Source of the DNA: Robiginitomaculum sp.
Lineage (GTDB): Bacteria > Pseudomonadota > Alphaproteobacteria > Caulobacterales > Maricaulaceae
Reading direction: 5' to 3'
Length of the DNA: 64,000 bases
NCBI GenBank assembly: GCA_021776515.1
Contig: JAJFFS010000012.1
Coordinates: 1 to 64,000, forward strand
Made by a program: the position numbers and the translations under genes. Below, piece by piece: positions 657 to 11,723 of the stretch (position 1 is its first letter; each line of letters begins with the position of its first letter). The notes beneath the pieces are model-generated. The model did no database searches and was not told where the DNA came from. It saw only the letters and a list, made by a program, of their open reading frames with translations.

Positions 657-1034
657 ATGAATGAGTGTGAACATCTCCGCAAGCTCGGACAAAAACAAGA
701 TACAGGCGTGAAAGCCTCTTCCGGGTTGAACCCAATGAATGGCCAGCCCATCATCACCGTTGACGTTGATGAGTTTGAACCGCTACTCAAAAACCCGGAT
801 TTAACCGAAGAGCAAAAGCGGGAACTTTTACAAGCCCTCTGGAATATCGTTGTCGCTTTCATAGATTTCGGGTTTGGTGTTCACCCCATTCAGCACGTTT
901 TCAATGACAGTGGAAAACTTGATAAAACTGAATTTGAGCAAGGTTTTGGGCGTGATTGTGTGATACAATCAGAGGATACAAAACTAGCCAGTAAATATAA
1001 ATACGCAACCAAACAAGACGGGGGGCCAACCTGA
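657..1034 (+). CDS. Small acidic protein preceding the large serine recombinase
   Basis: A 125-residue frame starts at ATG 657 and shares one base (TGATG) with the recombinase start, so the two are coupled. The N-terminal half carries a stretch (NPDLTEEQKRELLQALWNIV, residues 47-66) that looks like a compact helical segment, followed by FIDFGFGVHPIQ. The tail is polar. It has no signal peptide or membrane span. I do not recognise a named domain. Its placement immediately before a resolvase/invertase-type integrase suggests a conserved accessory partner. The ribosome site is weak (AGAAAGA). Confidence 0.7.
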   Translation: MNECEHLRKLGQKQDTGVKASSGLNPMNGQPIITVDVDEFEPLLKNPDLTEEQKRELLQALWNIVVAFIDFGFGVHPIQHVFNDSGKLDKTEFEQGFGRDCVIQSEDTKLASKYKYATKQDGGPT

Positions 1035-2626
1035 TGCCAAAGAATGTAGAAACAGATTTAACAGGGCATAATAACGGCTCTTCTTCTTTTGAAACGGCAA
1101 AGCCCGCCATTATTTATTGCCGGGTTTCAAGCAAGGGGCAAACGGGCTTGGGTTCTCAGGAACACAGGTGCCTCCAATACGCCGCCGCCAAAGACTATAA
1201 CGTCATGGCGACCTTTCATGATGACGTAACAGGGGGCGGGGATTTTATGAACCGCCCCGGTATGGTCGCCTTGTTGCGCTTTATGGATGACCACGCACAA
1301 GAAAATTTTGTGGTGATCTTTGATGACCTCAAACGCTATGCCCGCGATGTGGAATTCCACCTGCACCTTCGCAGGATCATGCTGGAGCGCGGCGCGGTTC
1401 GGGAATGTCTGAATTTCAACTTTGAAGATTCGCCGGAGGGTAAATTTAACGAGATTATCAATGCTGCTGTCGGCGAACTGGATCGCCAGCAAACAGCCCG
1501 GCAAAATAGCCAAAAAAGCATTGCCCGTCTTGAACAAGGTTATGCCGTTATCAGCCAACTTCCCATTGGATATAAATATGTGAAGGTCAAAGGCGGCAAT
1601 AGTGAAGTTGTAAGAGATGAGCCTTTGGCCTCCATCGTTCAGGAAGCGCTTGAGGGTTATGCAACGGGACGGTTTAGCTCTCAAGCTGAAGTTGTCCGGT
1701 TCCTAGAGGCGCAGCCCGCTTTTCCCAAACACACCCCAAACGGCAAAATACGCCAAGATAGAGCGGCTGATATGCTCAGGCAGGTTATGTATGCCGGGTA
1801 TGTAAGATCAGCAAAATTAGGCGTGTCGATCAGGGATGCCAAGCATCAGGGTCTTGTCAGCAAGGCTACTTTCGAGCGCATACAACAGCGCCTTAAAGAA
1901 GCGGCATACGCACCGGCGCGCAAAGACTTACATAAGGATTTTATCTTACGCGGTGCGGTGGCCTGTGGCCATTGTAGCAAACCCTTGCGAAGTAGCTGGT
2001 CGACAGGAAAATACAAAAAGTTTGCCTATTATCTTTGTCAGACCAAAGGGTGCAAAGTGTATGGCAAATCCATCCCTCGTGATAAAATAGAAGGCGAGTT
2101 TGAGCATCTCCTTGCCGCCCTGCAACCCACCGAGAATTTGTTTGAAGTTGTCACTGCCATGTTTCGCAAATACTGGGATATGAATGTCGAGCGGACAATT
2201 ACCAATGCTCAGGTTATCAAGGACGAAATTCAGGAAACCGAGACGCAAATCAAGAAACTTGTTGAACGCACACTTGAAGTAACCAGTTCGCGGGTGATGG
2301 CAGCTTACGAAAAACGCATTGATGAGCTTGAAATAAAGAAGCTGGTTCTGTCCGAAAAAGTATCAAAAACAGGTATTCCCCAACGACCTTTTGATGACAT
2401 ACTAGAACTCTCGCTCAAATTCCTGTCAAACCCTTATGGGATATGGACTACCGGCAAATTCACCCTAAAGAGAATGGTCTTAAAATTGGCCTTTTCGGAG
2501 CCTCTGCTCTATTGCAAGGAGACAGGATATAGAACCCCTAAAACATCCTTGCCATTCAGCATGTTAGGCGGCAAAAACAACGGTTTTTTGGCGTGTTTTG
2601 AAAATGGTGCCGCAGGGGAGAATTGA
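1034..2626 (+). CDS. Large serine recombinase (site-specific integrase)
   Basis: 530 residues with the domain order of large serine integrases. The resolvase catalytic domain spans about 25-165, with IIYCRVSS (nucleophile Ser32, Arg30) and the DDLKRYARD motif near 98-106. A recombinase domain follows at about 178-290, then a zinc ribbon with Cys312, Cys315, Cys336 and Cys341, then a coiled-coil-like helix near 395-450. These enzymes make staggered double-strand breaks through a phosphoserine link and insert elements at attP/attB. The last codons, including the TGA stop, fall within the 3' half of the tRNA-Thr gene read antisense, so the tRNA gene or its att copy defines this end of the element. 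No cargo genes remain between it and the chromosome. Confidence 0.93.
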   Translation: MPKNVETDLTGHNNGSSSFETAKPAIIYCRVSSKGQTGLGSQEHRCLQYAAAKDYNVMATFHDDVTGGGDFMNRPGMVALLRFMDDHAQENFVVIFDDLKRYARDVEFHLHLRRIMLERGAVRECLNFNFEDSPEGKFNEIINAAVGELDRQQTARQNSQKSIARLEQGYAVISQLPIGYKYVKVKGGNSEVVRDEPLASIVQEALEGYATGRFSSQAEVVRFLEAQPAFPKHTPNGKIRQDRAADMLRQVMYAGYVRSAKLGVSIRDAKHQGLVSKATFERIQQRLKEAAYAPARKDLHKDFILRGAVACGHCSKPLRSSWSTGKYKKFAYYLCQTKGCKVYGKSIPRDKIEGEFEHLLAALQPTENLFEVVTAMFRKYWDMNVERTITNAQVIKDEIQETETQIKKLVERTLEVTSSRVMAAYEKRIDELEIKKLVLSEKVSKTGIPQRPFDDILELSLKFLSNPYGIWTTGKFTLKRMVLKLAFSEPLLYCKETGYRTPKTSLPFSMLGGKNNGFLACFENGAAGEN

Positions 2627-2990: not shown

Positions 2991-4265
2991 ATGGATCGTA
3001 TTCTTATCAATGGCGGCAATCCCTTGCAGGGAAAGGTCCGCATTAATGGCGCCAAAAACTCGGCGCTGAAACTTATGGCGGCGGCTTTACTGAGCGATGA
3101 GCCGCTTGTTCTCACCAATATGCCGGACCTGGCAGACACACGCTTTATGGCACATTTACTCGCCCATCTAGGCGTTACAGTTACGCGCGAGAACGGCACG
3201 CAGATGGTCTTGCACGCCAAAGCACTGGCCGAACCGTTTGCCCCCTATGATCTGGTGCGCAAAATGAGGGCCACCTTTAATGTGCTGGGGCCATTACTGG
3301 CGCGGTGCGGATTTGCCCGGGTATCCCTGCCCGGCGGATGTGCCATTGGTGCAAGGCCTGTTGATCTGCATCTGAAAGCCCTTGAGGCCATGGGTGCCCA
3401 GATAGAACTGGAAGAAGGATACGCACTGGCCAAGGCGCCCAAAGGGTTGCACGGTGCGCAAATCAGCTTCCCGTTTGTCTCGGTCGGTGCGACAGAACAC
3501 GCCATGCTGGCCGCTGTCCTGGCCAAGGGAGAAACCGTGCTGGATAATGCTGCACGTGAGCCCGAAATTACCGATCTGGCCAATTGTTTAAACACCATGG
3601 GCGCAAAAATTGAAGGCGCAGGCAGTGCCAGCATCACAATTACTGGCGTTAGCAGCCTGGGCGGTACCAATCACCGTGTCGTACCCGACCGAATTGAGGC
3701 TGGCACCTATGCCCTGGCCGTGGCGGCAACGGGCGGTGATGTCTGTATCGAAAACTGTACGTATGCACACTTAGGCGCTCTCTGGGACCGTATGCGTGCC
3801 ATAGGCGTCAGCGTAGAATCGCAACAAGAAGGCAAGAGCGTCCGCATCACACAGCATAATGACCGTTGCGCCGCTGCCGATCTGGAAACGCAGGCCTATC
3901 CCGGTTTTCCCACAGATTTACAGGCACAATTTATGGCGGTGATGTGCCGCGCAGAAGGCGCATCTATTATCCGCGAAACCATATTTGAGAACCGTTTTAT
4001 GCACGCCCCGGAACTTTCCCGTCTGGGCGCGGATATTACCGTGCATGGGCGCGAAGCGGTGGTGCGCGGTGTACCCGCCTTGCATGGTGCACCGGTCATG
4101 GCAACGGATTTACGGGCCAGCGTCAGCCTGGTCATTGCGGGCCTTGCCGCGCAAGGTCAGACAGAGGTAAACCGCATCTATCACCTTGATCGCGGCTTTG
4201 AGGGGCTGGAGCGAAAGCTCAGCGCCCTCGGTGCCGATATAAAACGGGTAGCCGTAGCAACCTAG
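2991..4265 (+). CDS. murA: UDP-N-acetylglucosamine 1-carboxyvinyltransferase
   Basis: 424 residues, the usual length. MurA transfers enolpyruvate from phosphoenolpyruvate to UDP-GlcNAc, the first committed step of peptidoglycan precursor synthesis, in the cytoplasm. Visible landmarks are NGAKNSALK with Lys22, the loop [14 protein letters not shown] with catalytic Cys117 (the fosfomycin-reactive residue), and a late [13 protein letters not shown] segment typical of the EPSP-synthase fold. The retained Cys predicts fosfomycin sensitivity at target level. The TAG stop shares the palindrome CTAG with the stop of the convergent cytochrome c gene. Confidence 0.97.
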
Positions 4266-4642
4266 CCGTCTAAACCATCCAGGTATGCAATCAAGGCTGT
4301 ACGTTCAGCTTCATCGCCAAGACCCGGAAAGATCATTTTGGTTTTGGCGACAAGGCCCCGTGGATTAGTCAGGTAAGTGTTCAGCGTTGCCGCATCCCAG
4401 ACAGCACCAGTGGCGCCAAAATCAGTCATGGATGCACTGTATTTATAACCGGCAAGCGTTCCCGGCGTACGGCCAACAACACCATAGAGACTGGGGCCAA
4501 CTTTCTTTTTGCCTTCTTCTACTGAATGGCAAACGCGGCATTTATTAAAAACCTCCGCTCCATCGGCAGCAAATGACGGTGCAGCGCTAATGGTGAGCGC
4601 CAAAGCGCCTCCAATGGACATTATCGTTTTTCTATTCATCAT
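4262..4642 (-). CDS. Small class I cytochrome c (cytochrome c2-like)
   Basis: The start is placed at 4642, because AAGGAA lies 5-6 bases before it and the resulting protein begins with a clean signal peptide ([20 protein letters not shown], then PSFA-A). An upstream ATG at 4750 would put about 36 non-signal residues in front. The mature part of about 100 residues has one haem site [17 protein letters not shown] typical of the c2/mitochondrial c group, and Met in TKMIFPG as probable sixth ligand. It is a periplasmic one-electron carrier. It ends tail to tail with murA, sharing the CTAG. It lies beside a second haem protein and a cytochrome b561, so it may serve the same electron chain. Confidence 0.9.
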
Positions 4643-4786
4643 AAATTCCTTATTTTTAGGCTCATTTGTGTTAGCTTTCATGGACCAACTCAAACGCAAT
4701 ATTGTCCATAGTGTTGTTGAACCCAGTATGAATGATAAAGCAAATCGCAAAACTTCACATCTGCGTTATAAGGCTGTGTAGATACC

Positions 4787-4811
4787 AAAACGCCCACCAA
4801 GAAGGTGGGCG
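4787..4811 (-). terminator. Intrinsic terminator after the repeat cytochrome gene
   Basis: Read on the minus strand, a perfect 8-bp stem CGCCCACC/GGTGGGCG with a 5-base loop (4791-4811) is followed by TTTT. It lies about 40 bases past the stop of the gene ending at 4850 and would end that transcript before the small cytochrome c gene. Confidence 0.8.
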
Positions 4812-4849
4812 TCAGGGTCAGCAAAACACCGATACCCGGTGTGCTTATA

Positions 4850-5665
4850 TTACTTCGCAGCGTATTCTTTTTGCAGCTCACCAACATAGGCTGTCAACGC
4901 AGCCAGCTCCTCAGAATCCCAAGCCAGTGGCGCAGCTTCCATGGGTTGTTGCATACAAATTTGCACCATGGTTTCTGCTGTGACCTTTTTCTGACGATAA
5001 AGGTCCTTACCCATGGCCACATAATGGCTATACGGGTTTTTGAAGGTATCGTTATAACCTTCCAGATCAGTATGGCAGCTATTACAGCTCAACCCATTAG
5101 TGGACAGCGATGCGTCGTCATAAAGCTCTTTGCCGCGAGCAGCTAGTGTTGTGCTACCGCCTTTGTATTTTTTATCAAACATCGAGCGCTTGACGTCACC
5201 AGGATTACCTTCTGCCTCGCCTTCACCTTCTGCTTCGCCTTCTGCACTAGCTTCAGCTTCGCCTTCACCTTTGGCTTCGGCGTGGCCTTTCATTTTATGC
5301 GCTTCGGCGTGGCCTTTCATTTTGTGCGCTTCGGCTTCGCCCTCACCCTTGGCTTCGGCGTGGCCTTTCATTTTGTGCGCTTCGGCTTCGCCCTCACCCT
5401 TGGCTTCGGCGTGGCCTTTCATTTTGTGCGCTTCGGCTTCGCCCTCACCTTTGGCTTCAGCGTGGCCTTTCATTTTATGCGCTTCGGCTTCGCCCTCACC
5501 TTTGGCTTTTGCCTCAGCTTCACCAGCAGCCTGCTCATAAGTCGGAGAAGAAGCATTTTCTGCAACAACGGCCTGACTAATACCAATACTCGCCACCATT
5601 AATGGTGTCGAATACAGCAGCCCTTTGGCCAGCTTGCCGAGTAATTTCTGACGTTTATCCTGCAT
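4850..5665 (-). CDS. Secreted monoheme cytochrome-like protein with Glu/His/Lys repeats
   Basis: 271 residues: signal peptide about 1-35 (hydrophobic 17-33, AVVA-E), a repetitive region about 46-153, and a C-terminal haem domain. The repeat unit is AKGEGEAEAHKMKGHAE, present four times in full (54-121) plus partial units, then an EGEAEGEGEAEG tail. The haem domain has one CNSCH (194-198), an upstream GKELYDD motif and MQQPMEAAPLAW near 238, where Met242 is a candidate axial ligand; it resembles small class I c-type domains. The acidic Gly-Glu runs resemble the alpha-tubulin tail modified by TTLL enzymes, and the divergent neighbour is a TTL-type ligase. I infer it may be that ligase's substrate. 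His and Met in the repeats could bind metal. Family name unknown. Confidence 0.85.
   Translation of the reverse strand: MQDKRQKLLGKLAKGLLYSTPLMVASIGISQAVVAENASSPTYEQAAGEAEAKAKGEGEAEAHKMKGHAEAKGEGEAEAHKMKGHAEAKGEGEAEAHKMKGHAEAKGEGEAEAHKMKGHAEAHKMKGHAEAKGEGEAEASAEGEAEGEGEAEGNPGDVKRSMFDKKYKGGSTTLAARGKELYDDASLSTNGLSCNSCHTDLEGYNDTFKNPYSHYVAMGKDLYRQKKVTAETMVQICMQQPMEAAPLAWDSEELAALTAYVGELQKEYAAK
5249..5506 (-). repeat. 51-bp in-frame tandem repeats
   Basis: About five near-identical 51-bp units encode AKGEGEAEAHKMKGHAE. The copies differ by only a few third-position changes, and one unit is shortened to 27 bp. Such nucleotide identity points to recent expansion by recombination or slippage, so repeat number probably varies between strains. 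Confidence 0.93.
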
Positions 5666-5940
5666 GATCTTCCCCTTGGGTGTAGCGCTGCAAAAAGCAG
5701 CAATTGAAAACTTCCAACAACAGACGCACTGCGCCCTTCATCTTGCGACGATAAGGGCGAGGAGAAAACCGTGCAAGGTTCTACGCAGGCAATGTTGGTA
5801 ACGTTTGCGCGAGGTGCATGTCTTTTTGCTATAAAACAGGCTTTTTAACAAAACCATGTGCCTTAAACGCTTAAACATCGCTTGACAGACCGCCTGCATG
5901 CCATGCCATTTTCGCTGGTAACATAAATGTACAAGGGCTG
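5666..5940. promoter_or_regulatory. Divergent promoter region of the repeat cytochrome and the TTL-PqqD gene
   Basis: 275 bases separate the two divergent starts, so both promoters should lie here. On the plus strand a perfect TTGACA occurs at 5882-5887, but the sequence 17-18 bases downstream (GCCATT) is a poor -10 box, so the call is weak. On the minus side AAGGGGAAGATC just before 5665 gives a good ribosome site for the repeat protein. I see no clear operator palindrome. Confidence 0.35.
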
Positions 5941-8343
5941 ATGATGACTTCCACAAACAAGGGACAGCGCCGCTACTGGCTGGCCGGTAATCGCGAAGCG
6001 GGTCAGGACGTATTTTTTGTCGAGGCACTCGACAAGTCTATATGGAAACCTGGCACCGCAGAAAACTGGGATACCTGCTGGTACACAGGCATGCCAGACC
6101 CTGGAGTTTTTGAACAACTTGATGACTATAAAACCATCAATCACATCCCCGGCAATAACGGGCTGACCATCAAGGACTATCTTCATGAAACACTGCGGGC
6201 CACACGGACACGCCTGAGCAACCAAAAAAACATAGCGCGCATGGGCTATTTTCCACGCGTTTATGCCATGCCCGATGATTACCATGAATTACAGCAATGC
6301 GCCGCCCAAAACCCGAATAAGAAATGGATATTAAAACCCAAAAACTCATCCCGTGGGCGCGGTATTGAGGTAGTGCAGGACATTGCCAATATCCCGCTGA
6401 ATAACAAATGGATGGTACAGGAATATATCGACAATCCCCATGTGATGAATGAGCGCAAATATGTGCTGCGTCTGTACGTACTGGTCACATCTGTTGAGCC
6501 GTTGCGGATTTACCTTCACCGTGAGGGTTTCGCCAAACTGGCCTCCGAGCCTTATAACATCGAAGATCCAGACAATCCGTTTGCGCATTTGACCAATCCC
6601 GATGTCAATGCCACCAATACCGATGCCGATGCGCCCGTGGTATTCGTTGGCTTATCGGAATATCGCCAATGGCTGCGTGATGAGGGCCATGACGACGAGG
6701 CCTTGTTTGCCAAAATCCGCGATCTGGTAACCCTGACCGTTATTTCAGTTCGGGAAAGGATGCGCCGGCGCATTAATGCACAAAAAGCATCTGCACGCGG
6801 GTGCTATGAGTTATTAGGCCTAGATTGTCTGGTGGATGAACAACTCAAACCATGGATTTTGGAATGCAATTTAAGCCCCTCTCTGGAAGTGTGTGCCGGG
6901 CCTGAAGATGGCGGCGATACTGAAACGACTATCAAACGCGGCATGGTAGCCGACATGGTTTCACTGGTCGGTATTAACACGCCCCCAACTGATCATGACA
7001 AGATAAGTAAAGAGGAGCGCATTGCCCGCGATGCTGAAGCAGAACTGTCCCGCGCTGGCGATTTTGAATGTTTATTCCCGGCCAGGGAAAATGTCGAAGA
7101 CTATCTCTCGTTTTTCCCGGTGCCGCGTTATGCCGATATGGTCAGTGCTCGCCAGGTTACCGGCGGCGCGTTAAAACCTGTACGGCTGGCCCCAAATTGC
7201 ACAACCGAAATTATATCTGAAGACGAACTGGCGCTTTATTTCGAGAAAAACGGCACCCTTTATACGCCCAACGCTATATCCGGATGGATTTGGCTAAAAA
7301 TTACCGGCGGCGCAGACCCCGAGGATGTTGCCGCAGAACTGATCGCATCACATGAAGCCGCCCATGGTACACCCAGCGAAGACGAAAAATGGATGATCCA
7401 CGAAAACATCTGGGATGCGCTTTCCAATTGGGCGCAACTTGGGCTTTTGCACCGCGAAGGCGAAACGGCACCGGACCTGCCATCATCTCACAAAATGCCC
7501 CAGGCCAGCCTTTCATCAGATACCCTGTTGTTGGGTGAGCGCGTTATCGCCGTTGACTATGGCTGCCCGGCTGTGGCGGCACGGCTTGGTGAAATGTTTG
7601 CCCCCCTCAGAACAAAAGAAAAAGCCAATCTCAGCATTGCCGTGCAACGCGCGCCGGTCGGTTATGCCATGGCCATTGGCCCACAACTTATCACCACCGG
7701 ACTGGGTCTGGATAATGTTGCCCAGGTCGTCAGCCGCGCCCTTTTTGAACAAGCGCCAAATGGCGAAAATGAAATCGCCATAGCCGGCACGCTGGTTCCC
7801 CTAAACGACAAGGAAGCGGTATTGTTTGTGGCCGGGCGCGAAACCCAGTGGGAAGATGCGCTGGCGTTGATGTTCAGTTCCCTAACAAAAAAGGGCTATG
7901 GTGGTGCTGTACGACTAGACCTGAAACAGAAAAATTCAACCTGGGAAATTGGTTTACCAGTGCGTCTGAATGAAGACGACGTCGATACAGTTGAGAAAGC
8001 CCTTGGTACTACGCTGCCATCCTATATTCAGAACTGGACATCGGGAGGGCAAGGCAGGTTATTGGGCGCTGATACTAACAATGATGCCAAGCCCTGTTTC
8101 CTGCGCACAATCATCATTCCCGAACGCAATGAAGCCAATCAAACTGCATTGCAACAGGCCAGTATACACCGGGCGCTGGACGCACTTCTGGTTTCTGCGG
8201 TGGGGGAACAAGGCGCAAGCCTTACCGGGGCGCAGGTTAGCGCCTTGAATAATTGGCTGGAGGAGTGTGATGTGCGTACCTTAAGTTTCTCTAATCCAGC
8301 GGACGCCGCACAAAAACTCGCCAAGGCAATGGAAATAGGGTAA
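5941..8343 (+). CDS. TTL-type ATP-grasp ligase / PqqD / HprK-like fusion protein
   Basis: 800 residues, no signal peptide, so cytoplasmic. Residues about 60-345 match the tubulin-tyrosine-ligase ATP-grasp fold: WILKPKNSSRGRGIEVV (129-145) for ATP, VQEYIDNP (159-166), RKYVLRLYVLV (172-182) and YELLGLDCLVDEQLKPWILE then CNLSPSL (289-315) with the metal-binding E308/N310 pair. Residues about 415-507 look like PqqD (SGWIWLKITGG, then WDALSNWAQLGLLHRE), the fold that serves as RiPP recognition element. Residues about 525-800 resemble HPr-kinase-related proteins, but where the P-loop should be the sequence is VAGRETQWEDALAL, lacking GKS/T. AAGGG precedes two adjacent ATGs; 5944 is an equally good start. 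It is 28 bp upstream of cytochrome b561. The TTL family joins amino acids to peptide carboxylates; the substrate here is unknown. Confidence 0.85.
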   Translation: MMTSTNKGQRRYWLAGNREAGQDVFFVEALDKSIWKPGTAENWDTCWYTGMPDPGVFEQLDDYKTINHIPGNNGLTIKDYLHETLRATRTRLSNQKNIARMGYFPRVYAMPDDYHELQQCAAQNPNKKWILKPKNSSRGRGIEVVQDIANIPLNNKWMVQEYIDNPHVMNERKYVLRLYVLVTSVEPLRIYLHREGFAKLASEPYNIEDPDNPFAHLTNPDVNATNTDADAPVVFVGLSEYRQWLRDEGHDDEALFAKIRDLVTLTVISVRERMRRRINAQKASARGCYELLGLDCLVDEQLKPWILECNLSPSLEVCAGPEDGGDTETTIKRGMVADMVSLVGINTPPTDHDKISKEERIARDAEAELSRAGDFECLFPARENVEDYLSFFPVPRYADMVSARQVTGGALKPVRLAPNCTTEIISEDELALYFEKNGTLYTPNAISGWIWLKITGGADPEDVAAELIASHEAAHGTPSEDEKWMIHENIWDALSNWAQLGLLHREGETAPDLPSSHKMPQASLSSDTLLLGERVIAVDYGCPAVAARLGEMFAPLRTKEKANLSIAVQRAPVGYAMAIGPQLITTGLGLDNVAQVVSRALFEQAPNGENEIAIAGTLVPLNDKEAVLFVAGRETQWEDALALMFSSLTKKGYGGAVRLDLKQKNSTWEIGLPVRLNEDDVDTVEKALGTTLPSYIQNWTSGGQGRLLGADTNNDAKPCFLRTIIIPERNEANQTALQQASIHRALDALLVSAVGEQGASLTGAQVSALNNWLEECDVRTLSFSNPADAAQKLAKAMEIG

Positions 8344-8371
8344 ACTTGGCTAAATTATAAGGAACAGCATT

Positions 8372-9103
8372 ATGGAAAAGCCGACTTACAAAAGCTATCC
8401 GGTTTGGGATGTGCCAGTACGGCTTTTTCACTGGGTGAATGTTGCCTGTGTGATCAGCCTGATTGCCATGGGCACGGTTATTTTATGCGCAAAAAAACTG
8501 GGCCTTGATACAGATGGAAAAGTCTTGATAAAGACGGTTCATGTTTATGTTGGGTACGTCTTTGTAATAAATTTAGCTATTCGTCTGGTATGGGGTTTAG
8601 TGGGCAACCGCTTCGCACGCTGGACCAGCATTCTGCCCTTGGGTGGTGGATTTGTAAAAAAACTGAAGACCTATGTGGCCGCACAAAAGGCAGGCAAGCC
8701 GCAATATTACCTTGGCCATAATCCTAAAGGCGTATTGGCCGTCATAGCGCTGTTTCTGGTGATGATGACCATGGCAACAACAGGCCTTGTGCTGGCCGGG
8801 ACGGATATTTATTTTCCACCCTTTGGTGCCATGATCCAGGAATGGGTGGCCGCCGCCGGGGTCAATCCGGCAGATGTTGTTCCTTATGTCAAAGACAATG
8901 TGGATACCGAGGCCTTCAAGGAAATGCGTGCCTTTCGCAAACCCTTTATCACCCTTCATTACTGGACATTTTTTGTTGTTCTGGGGCTAATCGCGCTTCA
9001 TATTGGCGCGGTGGTTTACACCGAGATCAAGGTTGGCGGCGGTTTGGTTTCCGCCATGTTCACCGGCAAAAAAATCCTGCCACGTGAACCCGAAGATCAA
9101 TAG
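8372..9103 (+). CDS. Cytochrome b561 family membrane protein
   Basis: 243 residues with four hydrophobic spans (about 25-42, 58-78, 120-140, 192-212). It opens with VWDVPVRLFHW, the signature of the b561/Ni-Fe-hydrogenase b-subunit group. Histidines in RLFHW, KTVHVYVGY, LHYWTFF and LHIGAVV give four candidate haem ligands for two b-type haems. It would move electrons between quinol and periplasmic haem partners across the inner membrane. AAGGAAC stands 7-9 bases before the ATG, and the gap to the TTL-PqqD gene is 28 bp, so they form one operon. The adjacent c-type proteins are natural redox partners, though that is inferred from position. Confidence 0.93.
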   Translation: MEKPTYKSYPVWDVPVRLFHWVNVACVISLIAMGTVILCAKKLGLDTDGKVLIKTVHVYVGYVFVINLAIRLVWGLVGNRFARWTSILPLGGGFVKKLKTYVAAQKAGKPQYYLGHNPKGVLAVIALFLVMMTMATTGLVLAGTDIYFPPFGAMIQEWVAAAGVNPADVVPYVKDNVDTEAFKEMRAFRKPFITLHYWTFFVVLGLIALHIGAVVYTEIKVGGGLVSAMFTGKKILPREPEDQ

Positions 9104-10537: not shown

Positions 10538-11658
10538 CGTTTGCGCACCACAACGGTCCCGGCGCTATAACCCGCACCAAATGAACAAATCAGGCCCAGA
10601 TCACCGGTTACAAAATCATCCGAATGCTTGTGAAAGGCAATGATTGAACCGGCAGAGGAGGTATTGGCGTATTTATCTAAAATCACCGGCGCGTCCTCTT
10701 CACGGACCTCTTTGCCCATAACCCGTTTGGCAATTAGCTGGTTCATCGAGAGGTTAGCCTGATGCAACCACATGCGTTTTAGCTGGTGCGGGGCCAGGTT
10801 CAGTTCGGCCATGTGTTCGCCAATCATGCCAGAGACCAGCGGCACCACTTCACGGAAAACTTTACGGCCTTCCTGCACAAACAATTTATCATCCTGACCA
10901 ATACCTTCGGGAGCGGCACGATTTAAAAATCCAAAATTGTTGCGGATATTATTGGAAAATTTGGTTTTCAGCTTGGCACCCAGAATATCATAGCCGGCAC
11001 CATTAGTGCGGCTTTCTTCCTCTACCAAAATGGCTGTTGCCACATCGCCAAAGATAAAATGACTGTCGCGGTCACGAAAATTCAAATGCCCTGAGCAAAT
11101 TTCAGGGTTGCACACCAGCACGGATTTAGCCTGCCCGGAAGCGATCATGCTCTGCGCCGTAGCCAGACCAAATGTGGCCGATGAACAGGCGACATTCATG
11201 TCATAACCAAAGCCATCTTCCATGCCCAGCGCGTCCTGGACCTCAACAGAGATCGCCGGATAGGCCCGTTGCAGGTTTGAACAGGCCACCAGCACCGCAT
11301 CTATATCCTTGGCATCGCGGTTCGCCCGTGTCAGGGCATCCTGCGCCGCATTAGTGGCGATCTCAGCCAGTATGGATAGCTCTTCATCAGGGCGCTCAGG
11401 AATGCGCGGCGCCATGATGGCAGGGTCCAGCACAGCATCTTTGGAAACCACATAACGGGATTTTATACCAGAAGCTTTTTCAATAAACCCGGCAGAAGAA
11501 AGCGGCTTTGCCTCAACTTCTTCGCGTTCTATCGCTTGGGCATGTTCAGCATTCCACTGGTTTGCCCAGGCATTATAACTCTCGACCAGCTCTTCATTGG
11601 AAATGCTTTGCGACGGCGTCCACAGACCCGTCGTACTCAATACGGCGTTGTTTTGCAT
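10534..11658 (-). CDS. 3-oxoacyl-ACP synthase III family protein (FabH2-like)
   Basis: 374 residues, somewhat longer than classical FabH. The catalytic triad is visible: Cys in MNVACSSATFG, His in WLHQANL and Asn in YANTSSAG. The overall sequence closely follows the Pseudomonas PA3286-type enzymes that feed octanoyl-CoA from beta-oxidation into fatty acid synthesis (for example GHLNFRDRDSHFIFGD and NNIRNNFGFLNRA). I infer a similar bypass role rather than the main initiation step. It overlaps the FrnE-like gene by four bases, forming a two-gene unit. Confidence 0.92.
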   Translation of the reverse strand: MQNNAVLSTTGLWTPSQSISNEELVESYNAWANQWNAEHAQAIEREEVEAKPLSSAGFIEKASGIKSRYVVSKDAVLDPAIMAPRIPERPDEELSILAEIATNAAQDALTRANRDAKDIDAVLVACSNLQRAYPAISVEVQDALGMEDGFGYDMNVACSSATFGLATAQSMIASGQAKSVLVCNPEICSGHLNFRDRDSHFIFGDVATAILVEEESRTNGAGYDILGAKLKTKFSNNIRNNFGFLNRAAPEGIGQDDKLFVQEGRKVFREVVPLVSGMIGEHMAELNLAPHQLKRMWLHQANLSMNQLIAKRVMGKEVREEDAPVILDKYANTSSAGSIIAFHKHSDDFVTGDLGLICSFGAGYSAGTVVVRKR

Positions 11659-11723
11659 AAAAATCCCTAAATACGTTTACGCCCTGCTTTTACGCTTTTT
11701 ATGCCAAAAGGCCAGTGGGCCCA

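Follow-up and report, generated by a model that had tools for sequence, protein, structure and literature searches.

Genes of the locus and their neighbours

The window, by which we mean the whole stretch of 64,000 nucleotides of Robiginitomaculum DNA that was analysed, carries four genes between positions 4262 and 9103, which specify a cytochrome c, a repeat-containing haem protein, a ligase and a cytochrome b561. An ORF check of the window confirmed all four at the places, on the strands and with the spacing first assigned to them, including the gap of 28 bp between the ligase and b561 genes. The genes and the relevant parts of their products are as follows.

4262-4639 (-): cytochrome c, class I (Pfam Cytochrom_C, 35.7 bits); accessory, in the window's group only
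4850-5665 (-): repeat haem protein, the presumed substrate (Pfam; the only leader match in its own genome)
5561-5665 (-): leader of the haem protein, residues 1-35 (leader profile; export-signal shape by eye)
5207-5530 (-): Glu/Gly/Ala repeat core, residues 46-153 (sequence and repeat analysis)
4853-5206 (-): SoxA/TsdA-type monohaem domain (Pfam SoxA-TsdA; CxxCH at 5072-5086)
5941-8343 (+): ligase, whole gene, 800 aa (Pfam TTL; 14-row profile against TTLL6, E 2.5e-58)
6127-6990 (+): TTL ATP-grasp domain, residues 63-350 (Pfam; alignment to TTLLs)
7171-7455 (+): PqqD/RRE-like putative peptide-binding domain, residues about 411-505 (Pfam over the family; regional profile)
7531-8340 (+): C-terminal region of the ligase, earlier called HprK (HprK not confirmed)
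8372-9103 (+): cytochrome b561, apparently an incidental neighbour (Pfam Ni_hydr_CYTB, 94.2 bits)

A serine-recombinase-like ORF at 1034-2626 (+) lies upstream of a murA-like gene at 2991-4265, as read from the sequence. A promoter scan of the window found 4 promoters against 5.4 expected, and a PADLOC run gave nothing of use.

Genomes with the ligase account for 7 of the 99 sampled in the window's family; in the wider samples, with the window's own genome counted in, there are 3 among 385 (class) and 3 among 398 (phylum). Two more families, sampled around distant matches, hold it in 18 of 101 (one a fragment) and 10 of 101 genomes. Ligase-bearing and ligase-lacking genomes occur inside single genera of these two further families, and the named relatives are MAGs of Robiginitomaculum, Parvularculaceae and Marinicaulis. 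We examined 39 relative loci, of which 9 come from the window's group and the rest from three other families (2, 18 and 10), in stretches that vary in length where contigs end. A contig scan gave 8 loci, from which 4 relatives were used and 4 were left out (match over 22-24 residues only); loci L009 and L017, which are one contig, were counted once. The ligase is divided between two ORFs in locus L074 (genome G873) and is a fragment in L085 (G857), through either decay or sequencing error.

The sequence-only reading had counted the b561 as a member of the system. Within the window's group, 2 of 9 relatives have a b561 gene near the ligase; none of the 30 other loci has one, and at 2 of 39 relative loci we rejected it as a part of the system; its position beside the ligase looks incidental. 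The same reading had grouped the cytochrome c with the ligase, which proved right for the window's group, where it accompanies all 9 relatives, and wrong elsewhere (0 of 30 loci). Close orthologues of this cytochrome (at least 59% identity) are present in every one of the family's 7 ligase genomes and in 1 of its 92 others. On both distributions, the cytochrome may be an accessory to the haem protein that is confined to the window's group.

A TTL-type ligase with a candidate leader-binding domain

Residues 63-350 of the ligase match Pfam TTL with an E value of 1.7e-60 and 205 bits, against a curated cut-off of 20.1, so that the original description of an 800-residue, TTL-type ligase was borne out; the same model was matched in 14 of 14 family members scanned. 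TTLL6 ranks first in the PDB both for the single sequence (4.4e-42) and for a 14-row profile (2.5e-58), and the best-scoring solved relatives in this search are the glutamylases TTLL6, TTLL7 and TTLL11. Residues K132, E308 and N310 align with positions that we take to be the ATP/metal residues of TTLLs; E308 and N310 are kept in all 39 ligases compared (the window's and 38 relatives) and K132 in all 38 that are readable there. A RimK-related NCBIfam model was matched by 1 of the 14 family members only (E 0.027), and the window's own ligase had no NCBIfam match. A plasmid search with one distant ligase as query and a search of viral contigs gave nothing of use.

In excerpts of a study of TTLL6, Q180 is described as the primary determinant of the selectivity of this enzyme as an elongase (PMC12366701). 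At the corresponding place, 21 of the 38 readable ligases carry Arg (R138 in the window's ligase) and 17 carry Lys, and the Gln that would mark an elongase was found in none of them. By sequence, this substitution argues against an elongase; it does not argue against membership in the TTL/TTLL family.

The presence of a PqqD fold in the ligase, also proposed at the outset, was upheld for the family and less so for the window's own protein. Of 14 family members, 12 match Pfam PqqD at E values up to 0.1 (best 7.7e-10), which fits a recognition part, and the window's ligase reaches 17.7 bits, under the cut-off of 23.4. The NCBIfam lasso PqqD model is matched in 4 of 14 members (best 8.1e-5), and a 10-row profile of residues ~411-505 retrieved from the PDB the lasso RREs TbiB1 (4.9e-6) and TfuB1 (0.0011). 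Weaker matches of this profile were a coatomer chain at 0.011, which is probably noise, and at 0.014 a PqqD chaperone of a lasso peptide. The HprK module that had been placed in the C-terminal third was rejected: Pfam gave no match there at E values up to 1, NCBIfam gave none, and the best PDB match of a 10-row profile was to another protein at E 1.3.

Leader-bearing repeat proteins and their distribution

The haem protein of the window begins with a conserved leader, continues with Glu/Gly/Ala repeats and has a C-terminal domain for one c-haem of the SoxA/TsdA type, with a single CxxCH, in agreement with its initial description as a divergent monohaem protein with acidic repeats. In the DNA, the repeat has a unit of 51 bp in 4.1 copies at 98%. 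The haem domain scores 38.2 bits with Pfam SoxA-TsdA (cut-off 27); SoxA proper was rejected, with 26.8 bits in the NCBIfam SoxA equivalog against a cut-off of 110. Two Leu and one Pro are invariant in an alignment of 32 leaders. Within the window's group the leaders are 64% identical on average, as against roughly 25% for the signal peptide of the neighbouring cytochrome, the mature parts of the two proteins being similarly conserved (72% identity for the haem domain and 64% for the cytochrome).

Of the 57 ORFs with this leader in the relative loci, 23 also contain the haem domain and the other 34 lack it. At least three [GA]E[GA]E motifs are found in 54 of them and fewer than three in the remaining 3. 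Their cores contain 1066 Glu and 57 Asp, a ratio of 19 to 1, compared with 11470 and 10956 in the ORFs around them, a part of which may be spurious. An NCBIfam search with one short precursor gave nothing of use.

A leader protein is encoded in 38 of the 39 relative loci, the exception being L085, where only the ligase fragment remains. The haem version lies inside the examined stretch in 23 of 39. Beyond the window's group, 28 of the 30 loci have a short leader peptide without haem, one (L094) has the haem type only and L085 has neither, so that haem was rejected as the defining feature: the constant partner of the ligase is the leader with its Glu repeats, not the haem. Thus the link first drawn between the ligase and the repeat haem protein is sustained to the extent that the two belong together by comparison, with the constant part lying elsewhere in the protein. 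The comparison of genomes that had been proposed as its check is passed only in part by the haem protein and failed by the b561.

The leader profile matched the 7 ligase genomes among 99 plus one marginal case in the window's family, and in the two further families it matched exactly the 17 of 101 genomes with a full-length ligase and the 10 of 101 with a ligase. Over the 301 genomes of the three families, the leader was detected at E<0.001 in all 34 with a full-length ligase match (counting G873, where the gene is split in two ORFs) and in 0 of the 267 others; since some of these loci contributed to the profile, the positives are partly by construction and the weight is carried by the 267 negatives. 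The marginal match, in the ligase-less genome G027 (E 0.0023), was rejected when a filter for repeats, leader or haem motifs gave nothing. In the family with 17 full-length-ligase genomes, 5 of the 33 leader matches listed fall beyond the ligase stretches; the three that were read (G886 and G933 being the exceptions) are a short repeat protein in G903 and haem types in G926 and G873. A further leader match lies on another contig in G1026. Strong matches to the haem domain (E<1e-59) in the window's family are confined to the same 7 of 99 genomes, and the weak matches in G033 and G092 were dismissed as counter-examples, since by eye they are SoxA-like and di-haem peroxidase-like proteins. The gene set is more than a chance assembly: ligase, leader and repeats co-occur across the three sampled families.

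Related haem domains also exist where no ligase was matched. The haem profile retrieved 50 of the 398 genomes of the phylum sample at E values up to 1e-12, and 13 of these fall below 1e-30, 3 with and 10 without a ligase match. Our contrast set comprises the 11 haem proteins of these 10 genomes, two of which are incomplete (G710 at 67% and G725 at 57%) and thus less surely without a ligase; the 37 weaker genomes (E 5e-22 to 2e-13) lie outside the set. It was found by haem-domain search and is silent on short precursors, which the leader searches cover. None of the 11 proteins has the leader or Glu repeats. Instead, 10 of them contain NPC (Cys) motifs, 2-15 per protein, with only two in L154. 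The eleventh, L156 (G554), has no repeats, and its N terminus appears by eye to be a leader stub beside the haem domain; it is without a full signal region, and sister genomes of the same genus hold the ligase.

A tree was built for 37 haem domains (26 of the Glu type, 10 NPC and 1 with neither). Repeat type requires 5 changes on it, at least 4 of which are forced by supported branches, and a grouping of the Glu-repeat proteins in one clade is rejected (AU p 0.001). Repeat type tracks the ligase in all 4 pairs that are independent, too few for significance (sign test p 0.125). By similarity, a DUF6969-type gene is found near the haem protein in 4 of the 11 stretches, and the three of these genes that were tested with Pfam all match. 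The loci concerned, L148, L150, L152 and L155, each have a haem protein with NPC motifs near the DUF6969-type gene and no ligase match. NPC repeats and the DUF6969-type gene are possibly a second, different modification system; no paper on NPC repeats with DUF6969 or DUF3179 was found by title in open-licence PMC. Genes that recur among 40 clustered loci (L030, L031 and their kin), with names based on one or two members each, are DinB-like (22), ECF sigma (17), Peptidase_C92 (12) and DUF3179 (8); the last three also occur near haem proteins of the NPC type.

A proposed reaction, its alternatives and its relatives

The explanation that we favour, and consider probable, is a leader-guided, TTLL-type modification of the repeat proteins in which glutamate is most likely the residue added. 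The ligase would act in the cytoplasm, where its PqqD/RRE-like domain would bind the leader of the precursor and its TTL ATP-grasp domain, using ATP, would attach an amino acid (glutamate being the likeliest) to Glu side-chain carboxylates in the repeats; both the donor and the acceptors, the Glu side chains of the Gly/Ala-Glu repeats, are what we infer. The Arg or Lys at the Q180 place suggests that the enzyme starts branches rather than lengthening them. Modification would presumably precede export, upon which the leader would presumably be cleaved as a signal peptide. The predicted substrate at this locus is the monohaem cytochrome, the only one detected; elsewhere, short peptides, haem proteins or the two together would take its place. 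A eukaryotic parallel is described in excerpts of two papers, according to which TTLL5 glutamylates the Glu-Gly repeats of RPGR after docking at a separate domain and has an active-site signature that fits a branch starter (PMC13052805, PMC9897430). By analogy, the leader would be the docking site of the bacterial ligase, and Glu residues of the repeat the points at which it starts branches.

TTL relatives vary in their donor, some adding Tyr or Gly, and the donor is therefore not fixed by sequence. Accordingly, the ligase might modify the repeats by adding Gly, Tyr or another residue, or might act at the C terminus of the precursor, an alternative that we regard as unlikely. Many short precursors do terminate in or near the repeat itself, as a C-terminal site would have it; the haem-fused substrates, however, carry their repeats internally with the haem domain downstream, and a second Glu tail is found only in L022, and the solved proteins closest to the ligase in score are glutamylases. 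The L022 tail is an extra Glu/Gly stretch past the haem domain, at about 11590-11664 (+).

It is a good deal less likely that the repeats are mere acidic linkers or metal binders, with the ligase acting elsewhere and linked to them indirectly. Exported proteins often contain acidic tracts of low complexity, and the haem domain is found without the ligase as well, but a linker would hardly be expected to co-occur so tightly with the enzyme, to follow one leader on both haem and non-haem proteins, to prefer Glu over Asp so strongly or to be missing in its Glu form from haem proteins where the genome gave no ligase match. Least probable is a graspetide-like reaction, in which the side chains of Glu would be cross-linked to a Lys, Ser or Thr of the core. 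The combination of ATP-grasp, leader and acidic repeat core resembles graspetides, and the window's repeats (with Lys) and 39 of the 57 repeat segments offer a partner. As a general reaction, however, it is disfavoured by the 18 of 57 segments that contain no Lys, Ser or Thr, among them that of the L071-type precursor, and by the match of the enzyme to the TTL family in 14 of 14 members scanned.

The leader-guided glutamylation that we favour can be put in a fuller form, for which we consider the chances to be about even: that these bacteria have a dedicated glutamylation system, in which a branch-starting TTLL-type enzyme recognizes an export leader through a built-in RRE and modifies the Glu repeats of peptides and cytochromes that are exported, and that on the haem scaffold these repeats and the NPC (Cys) repeats of genomes without the ligase replaced one another several times.

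With TTLL5/RPGR and TTLL6/tubulin the bacterial ligase shares a homologous catalytic domain and, as predicted here, a Glu-Gly-rich repeat or tail as acceptor, and with the TTLL5/RPGR pair also the proposed separate recruiting contact. Unlike in eukaryotic TTLLs, the recruiter would be an RRE/PqqD-like domain and the mark an N-terminal leader, and the substrates look exported and, as far as seen, include no tubulin. Two hallmarks of RRE-guided RiPP pathways are found by sequence, an RRE/PqqD-like domain and a leader precursor nearby in 38 of 39 loci. RRE-dependent RiPPs such as lasso peptides likewise have a leader on a short precursor beside a gene with an RRE-like domain; they differ from the present loci, with their TTL-type ligase, simple-repeat core, precursors that are in some cases full redox proteins and a leader that also resembles an export signal. 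RimK is another bacterial ATP-grasp enzyme that adds Glu to a protein, ribosomal protein S6, but a RimK-related model is matched by a single one of the 14 ligases scanned. Graspetides, too, are made by ATP-grasp enzymes acting on acidic cores, some with repeats, as excerpts of one article describe (PMC8939145), although the ligase here is of the TTL family; the main text of that article contains no word beginning with TTL or tubulin. In excerpts of another paper, TTLs are treated as enzymes of tubulin (PMC4431377).

Both TTLL ligation and leader-guided modification are already known, and it is their pairing that appears to be new, the reaction being proposed. The open-licence PMC papers found, a body of literature that excludes preprints and most subscription papers and tests absence weakly, do not describe such a system. 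The comparison of sequences suggests an undescribed bacterial system for the decoration of exported proteins. Tubulin-type glutamylation has been studied mainly as a eukaryotic matter. If our proposal is true, TTLL chemistry would be joined in these bacteria with RiPP-style leader recognition, an export-linked modification of proteins would be defined, and a small, testable bacterial system would be at hand for the choice of acceptors by TTLL-type enzymes.
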